Virus record (IMG/VR): IMGVR_UViG_3300005264_000391
Span: 1-22,138 of that record
DNA from: a virus
Direction: 5' to 3' (one strand)
Length of the DNA stretch: 22,138 nucleotides
The translations under genes were made by a program, and so were the position numbers. Shown here piece after piece: positions 380-14,572 of this stretch. Position 1 is the stretch's first letter. Each line of letters opens with the position of its first letter. The notes beneath the pieces are model-generated. The model had not been told where the DNA came from. It saw only the letters and a list, made by a program, of their open reading frames with translations, and made no database searches.

Positions 380-434
380 GACTCCAAAAAAAAGCAGCAG
401 GAAATCCGGTCGCCTTAGTAGAGGGCGGAGATAA
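3..434 (+). CDS. C-terminal part of a Cys-rich/Arg-rich protein (5' end outside window)
   Basis: The reading frame is open from the first complete codon at position 3, so the gene begins upstream; the internal TTG at 36 is not a convincing start. The visible part holds two copies of one module. Each copy has a Cys cluster (CRKCTVYDAC; the second copy also shows an upstream CPAGGDYPHDFDEL, giving four Cys) followed by a basic and then acidic tail (RRSRRKREEEE). The C-terminus is very basic (KKSSRKSGRLSRGRR). The Cys pattern suggests zinc binding. Its stop codon overlaps the RecA-like gene start (TAATG). Being directly upstream of a recombinase, it could be the tail of a single-stranded DNA-binding protein; that is inference from position and from my memory of similar Cys motifs in phage proteins, not shown here. 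Confidence 0.7.
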   Translation, partial: AGGDYPHDFDELKACRKCTVYDACEADYENLTKSKKVEEVPSTRRSRRKREEEEDIRQAEEMEIQEKGDCPAGGDYPHDFDELKACRKCTVYDACEADYENLTKSQKVEEVPSTRRSRRKREEEEETPKKSSRKSGRLSRGRR

Positions 435-1519
435 TGAGTAAAATAATAACCAGGAAGTCCAATTTAAAAAAAACAAAGGAGATTGATTTACTTCCAACCG
501 GTTCTACCTTACTCAATTTAAACTGTGCCGATAACCCCTTCGGGGGTTTCGGCTTGGGTAGGATGGTAAATTTAATTGGCGACAGCAGTAGTGGCAAGAC
601 TCTTATTACTTTGACCATGTTTGCTGAGATGAGTTTGCAGAAACGATGGAAGGACTATGACCTTTATTTTGACGATGCAGAGGCGGCACTTGGTTTTGAT
701 TTGAAACATTTGTTTGGGAAGAGGATGGCGGAACGAGTTGATACGGATACTTTTCAAAGCAACACGATACAGAGAGTATATGGTAATATCCAATCGTTGT
801 TGAAGGAAGGCAGTCCTTTCGTATATGTGATAGACAGTTGGGATGCTCTTACATCGGAGGAGGAGATGCAGAGGGCGGAAAGATACATGAAGGATAAAAA
901 GGATAGGAAGAAGAACGAGGAGGGCGGTAGTTATGGAGTGGACAAAGCAAAATTGACCAGTCAGTTGCTTCGAGTCATTACAGGAGATTTGAAAAATACG
1001 GAATCTGTTCTTATTATTATTTCACAGACAAGGGATAATCTTGGTTGGGGTTTTAGTACGAAATCTCGAAGTGGTGGGAGGGCGTTAAAGTTTTTCGCTT
1101 CCCATGAAGGATGGCTCTCTATTATTCGTTCTATAAAAAAGAGGGAAAGGGCTGTCGGTGTAGAGTGTCAGTTCGAATTAACGAAGAACAAACTGACAGG
1201 GAAACAGTTTCGTCGTTGTCCTCTTCATATTTTTTATGAGTATGGAGTAGACAATATAGGCACGAACGTAGATTTCCTTATTGAGAACAACTTTTGGAAA
1301 GCAGTAAAGGAAAAGGAAAGAGAAAAGAAAAGAGGTGTTAAAAAAAATAAAGCCTCCAAGATACTCATACCGGAATGGAAGTTCGAGGGTTCTCGAGTTA
1401 AGTTAATTGACTATATCGAGGAGCAGGAGTTGGAGCAGGAGTTGATTGACATGGTAACAGAAAAGTATTGGGCAATAGAGGAGACGATGAGTATAAATAG
1501 AAAAAGGAAATATGAATAA
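434..1519 (+). CDS. RecA/UvsX-like recombinase
   Basis: This is a 361-residue RecA-fold strand-exchange ATPase. Walker A is GDSSSGKT at residues 49-56. The FDDAEAA segment near 79-85 matches the conserved glutamate region, and YVIDSWDALT at 131-140 is Walker B. The ISQTRDN segment near 196-202 carries the sensor Gln, and GGRALKFFAS at 214-223 is a typical RecA-family motif. The start overlaps the upstream stop (TAATG) behind a GGCGGAG ribosome binding site. It would coat single-stranded DNA and drive homologous pairing in phage recombination and recombination-dependent replication, which fits the Mre11/Rad50-like, FEN and RuvC-like genes downstream. Family assignment is firm; whether it is closer to UvsX or to RecA is not settled by eye. 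Confidence 0.93.
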   Translation: MSKIITRKSNLKKTKEIDLLPTGSTLLNLNCADNPFGGFGLGRMVNLIGDSSSGKTLITLTMFAEMSLQKRWKDYDLYFDDAEAALGFDLKHLFGKRMAERVDTDTFQSNTIQRVYGNIQSLLKEGSPFVYVIDSWDALTSEEEMQRAERYMKDKKDRKKNEEGGSYGVDKAKLTSQLLRVITGDLKNTESVLIIISQTRDNLGWGFSTKSRSGGRALKFFASHEGWLSIIRSIKKRERAVGVECQFELTKNKLTGKQFRRCPLHIFYEYGVDNIGTNVDFLIENNFWKAVKEKEREKKRGVKKNKASKILIPEWKFEGSRVKLIDYIEEQELEQELIDMVTEKYWAIEETMSINRKRKYE

Positions 1520-2190
1520 TGATACTACTCGATTGTAACGCCATAGCCAGTAAGGTACGATTTGGAATGGACCATGTCATGCTAACTGCTGGAGAGATGA
1601 GAACTGAAGTTATATTTGGATTTCTACGTCAGTTGCTGCTGTTAGCAAAACAGAAGAAGGACATTCGCGACAGAATGGTTTTTGTTTGGGACTCCAGATA
1701 TTACCACAGGTTTGAATATTGTCCGGAGTACAAACAGAAAAGAAAAAAGGAATTGACGGAGTGGGAGGAAGAAAGGGATGTCATATCCTACGAGCAGTTC
1801 GATTTACTGAGACAGGAGATTCTTCCTGCTATGGGGTTTCGTAATGTTTTTCGATTGCATGGATATGAGGCGGACGATGTCATAGCTGTTTTATGTAAAG
1901 GGAATGCCGAGGAGAAAATAACTATCGTGACTACCGACCAAGATTTGTATCAGTTACTAACGGACAATGTTTCTTTTTACAATTTAAGAACCAAAGTACT
2001 ATACACTCGACAGCAGTTTACACGGGATTACGGTATTACACCGAAGCAATGGGTAGATGTGAAGGCTTACGGTGGATGCGTTTCCGATAACGTGAAAGGG
2101 ATAAAGGGCGTTGGGGAAAAAACGATGTGCAAGTACATATTGAAGCAATTGAATTTTACAGGGGCAATGGTGGGCCGATTGGCAAAGTAG
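1519..2190 (+). CDS. FEN-type 5'-3' exonuclease / flap endonuclease
   Basis: A 223-residue protein of the phage T5 D15 / T4 RNase H / Pol I 5'-nuclease family. Metal-binding acidic residues are in place: D5 (LLDCN), D58 (VWDSR), E118-D119-D120 (GYEADDVIA), D140 and D142 (TTDQDLYQLL) and D190 (GCVSDN). The helix-hairpin-helix KGIKGVGEKT follows at about 193-202. It would remove RNA primers and cut 5' flaps. It ends soon after the H3TH segment and is shorter than T5 FEN (about 290 residues), so it may lack the usual C-terminal helices. Its start overlaps the RecA-like stop (TAATG). It ends in TAG, and the following gene lies in the same frame 24 nt later. Confidence 0.92.
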   Translation: MILLDCNAIASKVRFGMDHVMLTAGEMRTEVIFGFLRQLLLLAKQKKDIRDRMVFVWDSRYYHRFEYCPEYKQKRKKELTEWEEERDVISYEQFDLLRQEILPAMGFRNVFRLHGYEADDVIAVLCKGNAEEKITIVTTDQDLYQLLTDNVSFYNLRTKVLYTRQQFTRDYGITPKQWVDVKAYGGCVSDNVKGIKGVGEKTMCKYILKQLNFTGAMVGRLAK

Positions 2191-2214: not shown

Positions 2215-2706
2215 ATGAAAAAAAACAACTCTCCAGTATACATGGGAATAGACCCTGGTAAGAAAGGGGCTATTGCTGTACTGTCGGAGGACTACAAGAT
2301 AAAATTCGTTTGGGAGTACCCAGGGGAAATCGTTTATTGTGTAAACCTATTTGATAAGATAATGGAAATGTTTCCAAGGATAACGTTATGTGTAATAGAG
2401 CAGCAACAAAGTGTCTTTGGTGGTGGTGCAGGCAAGGCTTCATTTTCTTTAGGAGAGAACTACGGCATGTGGCAGGCTATTATCACACAAGAACGAATAC
2501 CGTTAGTACTTATCAAGCCAAACATTTGGATGAAGAAGTGTATCGATTACGGTAAAAGGAAAAAGGTGGATACGAAAGTCCGTAGCAGAGAAATGGCGCA
2601 AAGACTATTTCCCGATTTAGATTTTAGCAGAAAAAAGGATGACGGACGTTCGGACGCTTTGCACATTGCTCGATACGCCATTATGTATCAAAAAGGAGAC
2701 AAATGA
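2215..2706 (+). CDS. RuvC-like Holliday junction resolvase
   Basis: A 163-residue RNase H-fold nuclease resembling phage RuvC-like resolvases. It starts with GIDPGKKGAIAVL (catalytic D13). A second acidic position is E62 in VIEQQQS, and the C-terminal helix has DDGRSDALHIARYA (D143/D147, with H150). Length matches the family. The ATG at 2215 follows TAAGGAGCG, a good ribosome binding site. It would cut four-way junctions made by the upstream recombinase before packaging. Its stop overlaps the next start (ATGA at 2703-2706), suggesting translational coupling. Confidence 0.88.
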   Translation: MKKNNSPVYMGIDPGKKGAIAVLSEDYKIKFVWEYPGEIVYCVNLFDKIMEMFPRITLCVIEQQQSVFGGGAGKASFSLGENYGMWQAIITQERIPLVLIKPNIWMKKCIDYGKRKKVDTKVRSREMAQRLFPDLDFSRKKDDGRSDALHIARYAIMYQKGDK

Positions 2707-3623
2707 TTCTCGATAAAATTAAAATTAAAAACTTCCAACCTTTTAAGGATACGACTATCGAGTTAGCGACGGGATTGAATGTCTTTAAAGGGACAAGCCA
2801 TATAGGTAAGTCTTCCATAATCAGAGCTATCAAATGGGTATTGCAAAACAAGCCGCAAGGGTTCGGGTATCGTAGCAATTTTGCAGACAAGAAGGAAGCG
2901 ACTGTCGTGTCCCTGTTTTTTCCGGACAGCGAAGTAGTGAGGCGACGGGATAGTAAAGAAAATTGTTATGAGGTGAATGGAAATAAGTTGGAAGCTATGC
3001 GTTCTGATGTTCCTGATGTAGTGCAGGCAGCTTTACAAATGAACGAGGTAAATCTACGAACTCAATTTGAAGGATTTTTTTTACTACAGAATACCGCGGG
3101 GGAAGTTGCGAAGAAATTGAACGAGTATGCCGGGTTAGAAATCATAGACGTTAGTTTATCGAAGGTGAACAGACTTTTGTCCGTTGCGAAGAAGTACTAT
3201 GAAGAAAAGAATAGTCAGTTGGACGCGAACAAGATTTTGTTGGGAGGACTGCCTTATATTGATGGCATGGAGAGGGCTTTGAACAAGGTTATTGTGTTAG
3301 AACAAACCTTGGAAGAAAAAAGAGAGAAATTAAAAGTAGCAGAGGTACTGTTATCTCAATGGCAAGTAGTCGAGGGGAACATTCGCGATGAGTCAGCTTG
3401 GCAGAAGGATATACTACCGCGTTATAAGAAAACAGTCGCGATTGCCGAGGAGTACTATAAAGCCGAGGAGAAATTTTCTCAAGCTGTTGAGTTGTTAGAG
3501 GAACTTGATTACTGTACGAAAAAAATGAGGAGGATGAACTCAGAAGCTCTTGTTCTTGAAAAGCAATTTCATAAAAAATTATCGGACAATAAAATATGTC
3601 CTTTATGCGGGAAGAAGATATGA
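2703..3623 (+). CDS. Rad50/SbcC-like ATPase, N-terminal half ending in a zinc hook
   Basis: A 306-residue protein beginning like an SMC/Rad50 ATPase: IKIKNFQPFKDTTIEL, then a Walker A variant GTSHIGKSS at 30-38. FFLLQNTAGE near 125-134 fits the Q-loop region. From about residue 150 it is predominantly charged helix, consistent with a coiled coil. It ends at CPLCG (C299, C302), the zinc hook motif that in full-length Rad50 sits at the apex in mid-protein. Walker B, signature and H-loop are absent here and are instead found in the ORF at 4701-5135, after the nuclease gene. So this is half of a Rad50, cut just after the hook. Its stop overlaps the nuclease start (ATGA). Confidence 0.9.
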   Translation: MILDKIKIKNFQPFKDTTIELATGLNVFKGTSHIGKSSIIRAIKWVLQNKPQGFGYRSNFADKKEATVVSLFFPDSEVVRRRDSKENCYEVNGNKLEAMRSDVPDVVQAALQMNEVNLRTQFEGFFLLQNTAGEVAKKLNEYAGLEIIDVSLSKVNRLLSVAKKYYEEKNSQLDANKILLGGLPYIDGMERALNKVIVLEQTLEEKREKLKVAEVLLSQWQVVEGNIRDESAWQKDILPRYKKTVAIAEEYYKAEEKFSQAVELLEELDYCTKKMRRMNSEALVLEKQFHKKLSDNKICPLCGKKI

Positions 3624-4528
3624 AAATTTTAATAACAGGTGATTGGCATTTGACGGACAAAGTACCAGAGCGACGGACGGACGACTATACAGCCGCACTG
3701 GAAAGAAAAATGGATTTCATTTTTGATGTTTGTGAGAAATATAACTGTTCCATTATTCTACAGCCGGGCGACGTATTCGACCATCATAGTTGTAGCTACC
3801 AGTGTATTAATACTTGGATTGAAAAATTAAAAAGTAATATGGATAGGCATAACCGTTTCATCTATGCCGTATTCGGGCAGCATGATTTGAGGTACCATAG
3901 TTCCAACAAATTGAACACTCCTTTAAAAGTTATGGATGCAGCAGAGGCGGTCACTATTTTAGAAACGGAAAATTTTAAACGAGCAGGGGTGCATCTATAT
4001 GGTTGTAATTGGAATGAGGAACTTCCAAAGCCGGAAAGGAAACAGGGAGTTCACATCTTAGTCGTGCATCGGATGATAATAAAGAATAAAAAACTATGGG
4101 AGGGGCAGGAGGAGTTCGATGTCTCATTGGACATATTGAAGCAGACGAAGTTCGATTATATAGTTTCTGGAGATAACCATTCTGGGTTTACTTGTAAGGT
4201 AGGCAATCGAGTTCTGTTTAATTGTGGTTCTCTTATGCGGTCAAATATTAATCAAAAGGAACATAGACCTTCGGTGTGGGTGCTGGATACTCATAACCGT
4301 AAAATAAAACAAATTTTTATCCCTGTAGAGCCGTATAAAAAAGTGTTCGACTTCGAGAACTACGAAAGGGTGAAGGGGAGGAACGAGGAGTTGATGCTAT
4401 TCATAGAGCAGTTGGAAACCGGGGAAAAAATAAAGGGACTGGAGTTCCAAAAGAATTTGACTGCTTACTTAAAAAATAAAAAAATATCGAAGAACATTAA
4501 ACAAGCTATTGACGAGGTGATGCAATGA
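3620..4528 (+). CDS. Mre11/SbcD-like DNA exonuclease (metallophosphoesterase)
   Basis: A 302-residue calcineurin-like nuclease. I chose the ATG at 3620, which overlaps the previous stop as ATGA and begins MKILITGDWHL; the earlier in-frame ATG at 3596 lies inside the zinc-hook coding region. Metal-binding motifs are D8/H10 (GDWH), D51 (PGDVFD), GQHD at 86-89 in place of the common GNHD, H150 (VVHR) and H187 (SGDNHSGF). It pairs with the Rad50-like halves on either side to form an end-resection nuclease. Placing SbcD between the two Rad50 halves is unusual. It ends with an ATGA overlap to the next ORF. Confidence 0.92.
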   Translation: MKILITGDWHLTDKVPERRTDDYTAALERKMDFIFDVCEKYNCSIILQPGDVFDHHSCSYQCINTWIEKLKSNMDRHNRFIYAVFGQHDLRYHSSNKLNTPLKVMDAAEAVTILETENFKRAGVHLYGCNWNEELPKPERKQGVHILVVHRMIIKNKKLWEGQEEFDVSLDILKQTKFDYIVSGDNHSGFTCKVGNRVLFNCGSLMRSNINQKEHRPSVWVLDTHNRKIKQIFIPVEPYKKVFDFENYERVKGRNEELMLFIEQLETGEKIKGLEFQKNLTAYLKNKKISKNIKQAIDEVMQ

Positions 4529-4665
4529 GCGACTCTACCGTGATAAAAGAATTGGACAACTTAAAAAATGAGATTGAGAAAAGTAAGGAACAGTCGGCCG
4601 TCCTTCAAGGTAGGCGACAGGAAATTTTGAAGCAAGCTAAAAAGCTGTGTAATGTAAAAAGGTAG
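4525..4665 (+). CDS. Short coiled-coil ORF, probable first part of the Rad50-like C-terminal half
   Basis: An ATG overlapping the nuclease stop (ATGA) opens a 46-residue ORF of charged helical sequence (KELDNLKNEIEKSK and so on) that ends at TAG 4663-4665. The next frame is open from 4653 and continues with similar helix (KKVVLQEVAKQTQQ) into the ATPase C-terminal domain. A -1 shift on the run AAAAAGG (4656-4662), or one missing A in that run, would join the two into a 203-residue protein: a returning coiled coil plus the second ATPase lobe. As a separate protein this ORF has no obvious role. Confidence 0.65.
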   Translation: MSDSTVIKELDNLKNEIEKSKEQSAVLQGRRQEILKQAKKLCNVKR

Positions 4666-4700
4666 TCCTTCAAGAAGTAGCAAAACAAACGCAACAGAAT

Positions 4701-5135
4701 TTGGAAAAGCATTTGAGTGGTCTTGTTACCTTGGCATTGCGTTCCGTTTGGGCAACCCCTCCAGAGTTTGTTTTGAGGTTCGAAAGTCGTAGAGGAAAAA
4801 CAGAGTGTGACCTTCTGTTCGAAGAAAATGGGTTTGAGCAAAAACCTGTTGACGGGAGTGGTGGTGGTATGATGGATGTGACTTCGTTTGCTTTGCGTGT
4901 AGCCTTTTGGGCATTAAAAAAGAATAGACCGATAATGGTGCTCGATGAACCCTTCCCTAACGTGTCACCGGATTTACAGTACAAGGTTTCCGAGATGGTA
5001 AAATTCGTTAGCGAGAAATTAGGGTTGCAGATTATTATGGTATCCCATGCGGAGAATATCAATGTGGCAGCGAATAAGACGTTCGTTGTATCAAAAAAAG
5101 GGAAGGTAGGTTTTATTAATGAAGAAAAAGTATGA
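4701..5135 (+). CDS. Rad50/SbcC-like ATPase, C-terminal half
   Basis: This is the second ATPase lobe of a Rad50-like protein. Counting from the TTG at 4701, it has the signature-type motif DGSGGGMMDVTSFALR (51-66), Walker B PIMVLDEP (77-84), the D-loop region after it, and the H-loop MVSHAE (H116). The frame is open from 4653 but holds no ATG or GTG before codon 57, and TTG 4701 lacks a ribosome binding site. It is therefore probably translated as an extension of the ORF at 4525-4665 by frameshift, or it is broken by a homopolymer error or mutation. With the N-terminal half at 2703-3623 it would rebuild the ATP-binding cassette. Domain identity is firm; how it is expressed is not. Confidence 0.87.
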   Translation: MEKHLSGLVTLALRSVWATPPEFVLRFESRRGKTECDLLFEENGFEQKPVDGSGGGMMDVTSFALRVAFWALKKNRPIMVLDEPFPNVSPDLQYKVSEMVKFVSEKLGLQIIMVSHAENINVAANKTFVVSKKGKVGFINEEKV

Positions 5136-5290: not shown

Positions 5291-6520
5291 ATGGCAATAA
5301 GAACAGTACAGAAATTGAAGGAGGAATGTGAGGCGTTGGGCTTGTGTGTGGAAAGGGAAGGGGATAAGTTCTCGAAGCAGGATTACATCAAAGTCTTACA
5401 GAAACATTTCTTGCCGCAGGAGGTTTCTTTTGGTATGAAGTATCGATTGTCGCTTGACTCTTTGCAGTTAGCACGACAGTCGACTACCCTTACCGAGAAG
5501 GAAAGGGATATGATTTTTAAAAGCGATGAATGGGTAATGGAGGAGAAGTTGGACGGAGTAAGAATGTTGGTGTGTTATTCCAGAAAATATGGCTTCGAGC
5601 TATACTCCAGAAATATTTCTGTAAAAGACTTCCTCCCTGTCAGTTACTCCGATAAGTTTTGGTACAACAGAAACAGGGGAACGAACATACTCACAACCTT
5701 TGTTCTCGATTGCGAGATTACTTCTAACAACTCCAACCTCTCCACTATAATAGGCAAGAGAGGCGTGGTAACGGAAACCGTTTTGCAAGCAGTAACGGCT
5801 GTCTTGTCCCTTAATACGAAGGACTCCGTGCAAGTACAAAAGGAATTGGGCAACCCACTTGTCGTAACGGCGTTCGACTGCCTATACGTTGATGGAAGAG
5901 ATTTGCAGCATGAGGATTATTTTACTCGTCGACAAGCATTGAATGCGGTAGTCAAAAAATTGAACTTCCATGGTGTTCCATTTCAAAAAACAAAGGCTGT
6001 TTCTACGAACAAGAAATCCTACTTGAAAAAATTGTGGGCAGCCGGAGGGGAAGGTGGTATAGCAAAAAATATCAATCAAGGTTACCTTGCCAAGTCGAGT
6101 AGACCAAAAAATGGTTGGATAAAATTTAAGAAGACAGTATCCGGTGATTTGGGGGATACTGTTGATGGGTATATAACCGGCTTCGAACCTGGTAGGAAGG
6201 GTTCCGCGTTCGAGAAGTTGGTAGGAGCATTGCATATTTCTATAAAACTGGAAAAATTGAATGGAGATGTGGTTGAGCACATGATAGCAAGAACTGCGAA
6301 CATGCCACTTGCGGAGAGGAAACGAATCTCTTATTTGGACGGGAATGGGAAAGTGCGTTTGATTGATGAATATTTCGGTAAGGTTGTCGAGGTAGAAGGA
6401 CAAGCAATTTCTTCCCGAGTACTGCGGTTGGTACATCCTCGACTAATTAGATTCCGGATTGATAAAAGTATTTTAGACTGTGTTGAGAAGGAAAGCGATT
6501 TACGCCAGCTGATAAAGTAA
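5291..6520 (+). CDS. ATP-dependent DNA ligase
   Basis: A 409-residue nucleotidyltransferase ligase. The adenylation motif is EKLDGVR at 85-91, with K86 the predicted AMP-accepting lysine. Later motifs include ELYSRN, VLDCEI, FDCLYVDG, GGEGGIAKN and WIKFKK, in the expected order. An OB-fold-like C-terminal domain follows (DGYITGFEPG onward). The first 40 residues (VQKLKEECEALGL...DYIKVLQKHF) resemble a SAP-type DNA-binding segment. The start follows GAAAGGG. It would seal nicks in replication and recombination intermediates. Assignment is secure; the SAP-like reading is more tentative. Confidence 0.93.
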   Translation: MAIRTVQKLKEECEALGLCVEREGDKFSKQDYIKVLQKHFLPQEVSFGMKYRLSLDSLQLARQSTTLTEKERDMIFKSDEWVMEEKLDGVRMLVCYSRKYGFELYSRNISVKDFLPVSYSDKFWYNRNRGTNILTTFVLDCEITSNNSNLSTIIGKRGVVTETVLQAVTAVLSLNTKDSVQVQKELGNPLVVTAFDCLYVDGRDLQHEDYFTRRQALNAVVKKLNFHGVPFQKTKAVSTNKKSYLKKLWAAGGEGGIAKNINQGYLAKSSRPKNGWIKFKKTVSGDLGDTVDGYITGFEPGRKGSAFEKLVGALHISIKLEKLNGDVVEHMIARTANMPLAERKRISYLDGNGKVRLIDEYFGKVVEVEGQAISSRVLRLVHPRLIRFRIDKSILDCVEKESDLRQLIK

Positions 6521-13246: not shown

Positions 13247-13471
13247 GTAAGTAAGTAGATAGGTAAGTAGCAACAAGGTAGGTAGATAGGTATGTGTATG
13301 TGTGTATTGTGTGTGTATTGTGTAGATAGACAGATAAGTAGGTAGACAGCAGCAGTAGTAGTAGTAGTAGGTAGACAGATAAGTAGGTAGACAGATAAGT
13401 AGTAGGTAGGCAGTAGTAGTTAGGTGTGTGTGTGTGTGTGTATTGTGTAGATATGTGGGTAGGAACAGGGG
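13247..13471 (+). repeat. Microsatellite-like low-complexity tract
   Basis: About 225 bp almost free of C on the + strand, made of interleaved short motifs: TAAG/TAGG/GTAG tetramers, AGTAGT trimers and GT dinucleotides, plus repeats of GGTAGACAGATAAGTA and TGTGTATTGTGTAGATA. No coding frame on the + strand is supported; the long minus-strand frame here is a by-product of the repeat. With the rest of 13251-13562 it forms a 312-nt stretch without a gene, ending at the ribosome binding site of the next gene. Confidence 0.85.
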
Positions 13472-13562: not shown

Positions 13563-14129
13563 ATGAGGAAAGGACGGCGTGGGGGTAATTTGATTGGAAG
13601 ACAGAGCACCAATGTCTCGACTTTAGATAAACGTAGCAGTAGCAGTAGCAAACCTGTGGAGGGTACCGAGGAGATGATTGCCAAACCTCTTGCTCCAGTT
13701 GCAAAAGGTAGGCCAAAGGGTACCAAGAACAATACAGACTTGATACCGTACTCCTTGACGAGATTAGAGAACGTCTTGCTCAAGAACAATGGTAGGGTTG
13801 CCAAGACAGCAGACGAGCTTGGTCATCCATTTGCCAACGTATGGTACCAAATAAAAAAGTCAAGGGCATTGACTAAGATAGTACAAGATGCCAACGAGGA
13901 GGCTTTAGACTTAGCAGAGGCCAGATTAATACAAGCAGTTGAGGCTGGCAAGGCATGGGCTGTCCAGTTTATGTTATCTAAGAAGGGACGTAAGAGGGGC
14001 TATGTGGATTCGTCTGAGATAGTCTTGCCTAACAAAGCTATCAGTTTTAAATACGAAGTTGCTGTGCGAGCTAACAATGTTATCATAGAGCCGACAAGGA
14101 AGAAGCTGAAGAATGTGACGGAGGAGTAA
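13563..14129 (+). CDS. Terminase small subunit-like protein
   Basis: A 188-residue basic protein behind AAAGGAGAGG. A Ser-rich, AT-hook-like N-terminal part (AKGRPKGTKNN at about 48-58) leads into a helix-turn-helix (NNGRVAKTADELGHPFANVWYQIKKS). The helical segment NEEALDLAEARLIQAVEAGKAWAVQFMLSKKGRKRGY is the pattern of phage small terminase subunits, which end in F-x-L-x-x-K-G-x-x-RGY. It would bind the packaging site and direct the large subunit. Unusually it lies 3.3 kb downstream of the large subunit gene. A 40-bp tandem repeat array starts 51 nt after it. Confidence 0.72.
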   Translation: MRKGRRGGNLIGRQSTNVSTLDKRSSSSSKPVEGTEEMIAKPLAPVAKGRPKGTKNNTDLIPYSLTRLENVLLKNNGRVAKTADELGHPFANVWYQIKKSRALTKIVQDANEEALDLAEARLIQAVEAGKAWAVQFMLSKKGRKRGYVDSSEIVLPNKAISFKYEVAVRANNVIIEPTRKKLKNVTEE

Positions 14130-14180
14130 GTTAGCAGAGAAACTACTATTGTAGCAACCAACCAGTGGAAGATCTACCTG

Positions 14181-14572
14181 GACCTATCAAATGTATGTAG
14201 ATTATGTGACAACCTAACTGAACCTATCAAATGTATGTAGATTATGTGACAGCCTAACTGGACCTATCAAATGTATGTAGACTATGTGACAGCCTAACTG
14301 GACCTATCAAATGTATGTAGACTATGTGACAGCCTAACTGGACCTATTATGTGACAGCCTAACTGGACCTATCAAATAACAGTAGACTATGTGACAGCCT
14401 AACTGAACCTATCAAATAACAGTAGATTATGTGACAGCCTAACTGGACCTATCAAATGTATGTAGATTATGTGACAGCCTAACTGGACCTATCAAATAAC
14501 AGTAGATTATGTGACAACCTAACTGGACCTATCAAATGTATGTAGATTATGTGACAGCCTAACTGAACCTAT
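14181..14572 (+). repeat. Ten 40-bp tandem repeats, candidate packaging or iteron site
   Basis: Nine full 40-bp units and one shortened unit of 25 bp (14341-14365), followed by a 7-bp partial copy. The consensus begins GACCTATCAAATGTATGTAG and ends CAGCCTAACTG. Units fall into two types that differ at positions 13-16: GTAT (units 1-4, 8, 10) and AACA (units 6, 7, 9). Minor variation occurs at positions 1, 22 and 32. The 40-bp period is not a multiple of three and no start is present, so it is not coding. There are no unique spacers, so it is not CRISPR. Its place between the small terminase-like gene and the portal gene suggests a pac-type recognition site. Confidence 0.93.

Follow-up and report, generated by a model that had tools for sequence, protein, structure and literature searches.

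A putative phage copy of a multi-subunit Mre11-Rad50 module with Rad50 encoded by separate genes, and its relatives beside recA in Bacillota

Introduction

The 22,138-base viral contig IMGVR_UViG_3300005264_000391 (hereafter the window, i.e., the whole stretch of DNA that was analysed) contains a gene resembling the first half of rad50 which stops directly after its zinc-hook motif, followed by an SbcD/Mre11-like nuclease gene and then by reading frames related to the remainder of the ATPase. The locus raises the question of whether an ordinary rad50 gene has been broken, whether this is a peculiarity of one phage, or whether Rad50 can be assembled from separately encoded chains. We consider the last to be the probable answer. 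With a probability of roughly 0.8, the window holds a phage copy of a multi-subunit Mre11-Rad50 in which Rad50 is formed by separate chains, an N-half (N), a small coiled-coil protein (SC) and a C-half (C), together with SbcD, and which belongs to a lineage replacing single-chain SbcC in Bacillota. The split itself is real and ancient.

Results

Genes and motifs of the split module

The module occupies the following positions of the window.

2703..3623, + strand: Rad50 N-half, 306 aa, comprising ATPase N-lobe, helical arm and terminal zinc hook (Pfam AAA_15/AAA_23; phrog_16465)
2790..2816, + strand: Walker A, GTSHIGKSS (direct translation; G30, G35 and K36 invariant in N-half alignment A3)
3138..3590, + strand: helical arm, residues 146-296, of the shortest class, with about two repeats of ~47 residues (AlphaFold2 (AF2) helices 146-181, 184-231 and 238-296)
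3597..3608, + strand: CPLC of the zinc hook, followed by four residues and the stop (CPLCGKKI-stop; direct translation)
3620..4528, + strand: SbcD/Mre11-like nuclease, 302 aa (Metallophos 3.6e-11; phrog_100, SbcD-like, 2.5e-13)
4525..4665, + strand: SC remnant, 46 aa, with the first half of this small coiled-coil gene (SC hidden Markov model (HMM), E value 5.8e-8)
4651..4664, + strand: junction with a change of reading frame, where SC lacks its 3' part and the C-half its 5' part (three-frame translation)
4665..5135, + strand: Rad50 C-half, 5'-truncated C-lobe (phrog_15167, 2.2e-19)
4854..4880, + strand: ABC signature region, GSGGGMMDV (direct translation; C-half alignment A4)
4932..4952, + strand: Walker B, IMVLDEP (direct translation; alignment A4)
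5046..5048, + strand: H-loop histidine (direct translation)

The break just after the zinc hook, as proposed in the initial annotation, is borne out by the relatives of the N-half. Both hook cysteines are invariant in N-half alignments A3 and A5, the Rad50_zn_hook model of Pfam (PF04423) matches 9 of 39 N-halves from Bacillota and Bacillus phages, and the C-terminus resembles an ordinary Rad50 hook, in which the return helix makes its initial turns before the chain ends. A profile of 14 N-halves (A3) compared with all PDB sequences gave Rad50 chains as the top matches (3aux, 2.8e-11; 1ii8_A), and the AF2 models of two N-halves were aligned by VIA-align to the heads of Rad50, SMC and RecF with Z scores of ~10-13, which are uninformative for the arm portion.

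The corresponding profile of 14 C-halves (A4) has the Rad50 C-lobe as its top PDB match (3qkr_B, 2.4e-12; 1ii8_B), with weak matches also to ABC transporters and SMCs; three loci found by weak C-half blast matches (L008-L010) were discarded as ABC transporters. A head composed of two chains is feasible, since the heads of Pyrococcus furiosus Rad50 in PDB 1f2t and 1ii8 consist of two separate chains.

The nuclease is a calcineurin-like phosphoesterase with SbcD-type similarity, although its match to TIGR00619 (5.5e-7) is below the cut-off of that model. The gene overlaps its neighbours by ATGA at both ends (start at 3620, end at 4525-4528), as the initial annotation had read. Its motifs GQHD and GDNH, also seen in a related viral contig (L003, 2856-3782), stand in place of the usual GNHD and GHxH, and the metal ligands are possibly changed.

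Recurrence and co-inheritance

The arrangement recurs in other viruses. This related contig, IMGVR_UViG_3300025022_000025 (L003), has an N-half with the C-terminal residues CPLCGNKLVEE, then SbcD, the small coil gene and a separate C-half that is intact at 208 aa; the C-half of the window is 60% identical to it. In the isolated Bacillus phage vB_BboS-125, gp32 (annotated as exonuclease) is the N-half, ending ICPLCEQTHKGGGC, gp34 (hypothetical) is the small coil and gp35 (ATPase) is the C-half. Another isolate, Microcystis phage Mvi-JY20, encodes N, SbcD, small coil and C as a series of overlapping genes. Scans with the single proteins P0001 and P0003 recovered no relative and one relative, respectively; the wider recovery came from alignment scans, which gave 80 viral loci, most with N, SbcD and C as separate open reading frames (ORFs), and 41 loci from bacterial genomes. 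Wherever a viral contig includes the end of the N-half, a CxxC lies at most ~27 residues from it. Among the loci examined, no armed single-chain Rad50 of the split family was present, and the genes were separate in all armed loci.

After dereplication, the N/SC/C/SbcD module was represented by 146 loci in three gene orders: SbcD-N-C (77 loci), N-SbcD-C (43; the type of the window) and N-C-SbcD (26). The initial annotation would have withdrawn its proposal had the arrangement been confined to one contig; because it was found again in more than 140 loci, the split is not a matter of chance. Each gene order corresponds to one near-perfect clade in the trees of the N-lobe, the C-half and SbcD. The tree distances are correlated (r of 0.90 for N-C, 0.84 for N-SbcD and 0.88 for C-SbcD, against permutation maxima of 0.15-0.25), and although relatedness inflates such correlations, the match between clade and order is independent of it. 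The further proposal that the order N-half, Mre11, C-half serves to assemble Rad50 around its nuclease is not supported: only one order places SbcD between the halves, the other two (SbcD-N-SC-C and N-SC-C-SbcD) having it outside them, so that order-driven assembly is unneeded. In phages of the Bacillus type, an AP2/HNH-like ORF lies between the N-half and SC genes (L002, 7398-7970; similarly in L050, L051, L063, L069 and L085) and looks as if a homing gene had settled in the module.

The small coiled-coil gene and the damaged junction

A small coiled-coil ORF of ~77-104 aa, SC (~77-87 aa at full length in most relatives), is encoded directly upstream of the C-half in nearly all loci. An HMM built on phage SCs has the 46-aa ORF as its single clear match among 200 ORFs of the window, and matches chromosomal SCs as well (E values of ~1e-6 to 1e-7). 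The initial annotation had taken an ORF pair behind the nuclease gene as returning coil and C-lobe. The second ORF does carry signature, Walker B and H-loop, but the first is the head of SC, a conserved third chain whose broken remnant had been read as part of the C-half, so that a two-chain Rad50 is no longer an adequate description.

The frame of the C-half opens, in another frame than SC, at a conserved VLQEVAKQ stretch (HMM position ~69 of 244); it contains no in-frame ATG, the earliest start codon being a TTG at 4701, within the same stretch. A total of ~250 bp is missing from the window, comprising the 3' half of SC and ~53 codons from the start of the C-half. This copy is therefore damaged; relatives have intact ones. 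The junction at 4651-4664 was absent from all other viral contigs searched. Either a true deletion or misassembly of this metagenomic contig would account for it. A programmed -1 frameshift from 4525-4665 into the C frame was considered, and an AAAAAGG run is present, yet it was rejected as the main explanation: the small ORF is the head of another gene, and without the N-terminal ~53 residues of the C-half a shift would not yield the C-half typical of the family. SbcD lies between the halves in 43 loci, and an Rfam scan of the window found no intron, which led to the rejection of splicing or recoding from N to C as well.

The chromosomal module and canonical SbcC

The initial annotation had treated the split as a phage feature, but it is not chiefly one. 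The bacterial genome scan revealed ~33 Bacillota loci with the order recA-SbcD-N-SC-C-rny, in a conserved synteny pgsA-(cinA)-recA-SbcD-N-SC-C-rny with ymdB and spoVS also around, and the module is present in the complete chromosome of Alkalihalophilus pseudofirmus OF4. It occurs in 61 of 398 sampled Bacillota genomes, roughly one in seven, and in 106 of 199 genomes of the order containing Soehngenia; it is also found on some Bacillota plasmids, where the annotation is mostly hypothetical protein. One genome (G455) has a second module copy (L193), in which a 414-aa SbcD-like protein with an ~85-residue insertion (505-1749) lies beside a 604-aa N-half, among the longest seen.

Canonical SbcC is nearly absent from these genomes. 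PF13558 (SbcC Walker B) was found in 12 of 14 control genomes but was missing from 14 of the 16 that carry the module; in these 16 it matched only two unrelated proteins of 1358 and 1399 aa, never the module, and in a Pfam scan it had no match among the window proteins. TIGR00618 was tried as a marker of canonical SbcC and rejected as too weak, being above cut-off in only 1 of 14 controls. For the 398 genomes, PF13558 matches were sorted into a strong and a weak class, and five loci were inspected. All three strong loci (L208, L209, L212) are not SbcC, having JetC-like or longer SMC-like proteins without CxxC, while both weak loci (L210, L211) are SbcC beside SbcD, with CxxC in mid-chain. The weak class is found in 2 of 61 module genomes and in at least 115 of the 337 others (Fisher p 6e-8), where 115 is a hand count from a printed table that leaves out genomes with both classes and is hence a minimum; 59 of the 61 thus have no recognisable canonical SbcC. 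In L208 and L209 (genomes G064 and G128), PF13558 gives stronger matches to JetC-like (Wadjet) proteins of ~1110 aa than to true SbcC, and raw PF13558 counts accordingly overstate SbcC.

Armless fused relatives

Some relatives carry the same parts in one chain. In genome G060 (L195, 2152-4254), a single 700-aa protein comprises SbcD (6-320), N-lobe (336-505) and C-lobe (500-681), with no arm and no hook, and its pieces share 36-37% identity with the three proteins of A. pseudofirmus. SbcD-N-C proteins of similar build are present in G379, G315, G649 and probably G623, and three further genomes have N+C fusions of 352-375 aa with SbcD separate alongside. Neither SC nor the hook was present in the fused loci checked. 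Of the sequence evidence, these fusions argue most strongly that N and C together make up one ATPase and that SC goes with the arm. The armless fusions (L195, L198-L201 and L204-L206) fall in one Bacillota order and amount to a natural minimal Mre11-Rad50.

Arm repeats and arm length

Chromosomal N-halves with a 290-residue arm show a tandem period of 47 residues (z 9.4), with 95, 142 and 189 also raised. Across the family, N arm lengths cluster at ~105-116, 144-160, 182-213, 257-263 and 305 residues, rising by ~47 residues per step, while the sizes of SC and the C-half are constant across these classes. Arm length is therefore set by the N chain alone, which a canonical coil simply cut in two fails to explain. 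SC as a length-matching return arm in all classes was rejected on the same ground, since arm lengths do not co-vary with SC or the C-half.

Neighbouring genes and repeats of the window

Besides terminase, portal, protease and capsid genes, the contig carries a recombination block in which a UvsX-like recombinase, a 5' exonuclease, a RuvC-like resolvase, the N-half, SbcD, the 46-aa ORF, the remainder of the C-half and an ATP-dependent ligase follow one another. The members outside the module are:

434..1519, + strand: UvsX/RecA-like recombinase (phrog_97, 3.9e-36; RecA tblastn, 5e-21)
1519..2190, + strand: 5' exonuclease (phrog_107, 1.4e-29)
2215..2706, + strand: RuvC-like Holliday junction resolvase (phrog_1770, 2e-24)
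5291..6520, + strand: ATP-dependent DNA ligase (phrog_114, 5.4e-32)

Elsewhere in the window, positions 14174-14572, between the ORF at 13563-14129 and the portal gene, form a minisatellite with ~10 copies of ~40 bp units and higher-order repeats of 105-185 bp, which is unusual for a phage genome. Short tandem repeats (TGTGTGTATTG; GTAGGTAGACAGATAA) lie at 13299-13402, in low-complexity sequence upstream of the same ORF, and an ORF open at the contig edge (3-434) has a Cys-containing segment in two near-identical copies (GGDYPHDFDELKACRKCTVYDACEADYENLTKS).

Discussion

Proposed working of the module

In the proposed complex, N would contribute the N-lobe, the arm and the zinc hook, and C the base of the return coil and the C-lobe; SC would be a small helical subunit of the arm. 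N-lobe and C-lobe would meet to form one composite ATPase head; on binding ATP, two such heads would dimerise and control SbcD at DNA ends or hairpins, the ends being processed by SbcD, while the N chain would tether through zinc by the hook at its free end. Assembly, zinc binding, nuclease control and the part played by SC are all predicted from sequence. In Bacillota, the module beside recA would replace SbcC, and in phages it would serve recombination beside UvsX, 5' exonuclease, RuvC and ligase.

As to the arm, we lean somewhat towards a Rad50 with an arm that lacks covalent closure. The hook would sit on the free end of one chain, the return path being made or omitted by a detachable SC and C chain, with repeats of ~47 residues added to N only; the complex could then open or exchange its arm, and would be the resident Mre11-Rad50 in a sizeable part of Bacillota.

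Several results weigh against the proposed complex. The phage of the window may be without a working complex, because its own SC and C-half are truncated. The AF2 models of the N-half have low predicted template modelling scores (pTM 0.38-0.39). The coil of SC plus C-half (~140-155 residues) could fit an outgoing arm of the ~156 class and not those of 259 or 305, and coevolution analysis (78 sequences, effective number (Neff) 58) gave no clear hairpin signal and favoured no turn position. Finally, the exclusion of SbcC is not absolute, resting on one Pfam model with matches sorted by strength and on five loci.

Alternative explanations

The alternative that survives best concerns arm geometry within the multi-chain reading. 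The N-half could be a self-contained rod, either a hairpin or a repeat rod, with CPxC away from the far tip and no separate return arm. The tandem ~47-residue repeats and the quantised arm length without compensating change in SC or C-half speak for it, and in the AF2 model of the N-half of A. pseudofirmus OF4 (L098) the one low-confidence gap (345-352) would balance an outgoing arm of 186 residues against 106 plus the C-half coil. We nevertheless regard the rod as doubtful: the C-terminal motif resembles a normal hook down to the start of its return helix, no turn is favoured by coevolution, and the AF2 model of the window class breaks where the arms would not balance. AF2 and coevolution do not decide between a hook at the far end, with SC and C making up the rest of the arm, and a folded-back N arm.

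It is improbable that N-half and C-half are paralogues with separate jobs which just happen to lie next to SbcD, the one being, e.g., a regulator with an N-lobe only and the other an ABC-type ATPase unrelated to it. The weak C-half matches to ABC transporters and SMCs would be accommodated, and the complex is itself a prediction; however, neither half has a complete ATP site, N fits best the N-lobe of Rad50 and C its C-lobe, the trees are congruent, and fused N+C and SbcD+N+C proteins exist within the same family. There is similarly little to be said for a Lamassu-related system of defence or phage-host conflict in place of a repair complex. The N-half matches PADLOC LmuB at 1e-13 over residues 1-305 of the window protein, but LmuB is itself a Rad50-like SMC and many models of Rad50-type ATPases also match; moreover, the recA-rny position on chromosomes is conserved and not island-like, and the phage copies lie among recombination genes. 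Least probable of all is a sequencing or assembly error in an ordinary single rad50 gene, which the unique junction with missing sequence at ~4651-4664 of a metagenomic contig might suggest, but which covers the SC/C junction only and is already refuted for the split itself, found in 146 dereplicated loci including finished chromosomes and with a whole SbcD gene separating the halves in 43.

Relation to known systems

With canonical SbcCD/Mre11-Rad50 (E. coli SbcC, P. furiosus Rad50), the multi-chain module shares an SbcD-like nuclease, N- and C-lobe motifs, a CPxC hook and a link to recombination genes. It differs in having Rad50 in separate genes broken after the hook, an extra SC and an arm of ~47-residue repeats, and canonical SbcC is usually absent alongside it; in the armed loci examined, the two lobes are not parts of a single polypeptide linked through an antiparallel coiled coil. 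T4 gp46/gp47 and the T5-type SbcCD-like proteins (phrog_77/phrog_100) are likewise phage-borne Rad50/Mre11 pairs for recombination, but gp46-type proteins carry both lobes in one chain, whereas the split family has two chains plus SC.

Rearranged Mre11-Rad50 coding has been described as Mre11/Rad50 fusions in Mimivirus, bacteria and Bacillus phage 0305phi8-36, those of the Bacillus phage and Anaerostipes being without one P-loop NTPase segment (PMC3175470). A split Rad50 with SC was not described there, and the latter fusions may be partial sightings of the split family, to which the armless SbcD-N-C fusions (P0012) belong. The archaea-specific SMC-related proteins (ASRP; PMC9389158) and Lamassu LmuB also have Rad50-like heads and a zinc hook, but they are single chains with other partners; the LmuB-like N-half is a split chain with an SbcD partner, and LmuA and LmuC were not found beside the module. 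In the open-licence literature, we found no description of a split Rad50.

Significance

Three PHROG families, phrog_16465 (exonuclease), phrog_15167 (ATPase) and phrog_18563 (unknown), which are the N-half, C-half and SC of Bacillus phages, had been catalogued as unconnected and not recognised as one complex, and are now linked. Mre11-Rad50 occurs almost universally, and the working of its long arms and zinc hook continues to be debated. In the present, natural lineage, arm and C-lobe are separated, arm length is quantised, and some relatives have lost the arm together with hook and SC, so that arm function becomes directly testable by exchanging or omitting chains; if the arm can indeed open or be exchanged, this would go beyond what a single-chain Rad50 can do. 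The module would also provide a repair system to many Bacillota that otherwise seem to be without SbcCD.

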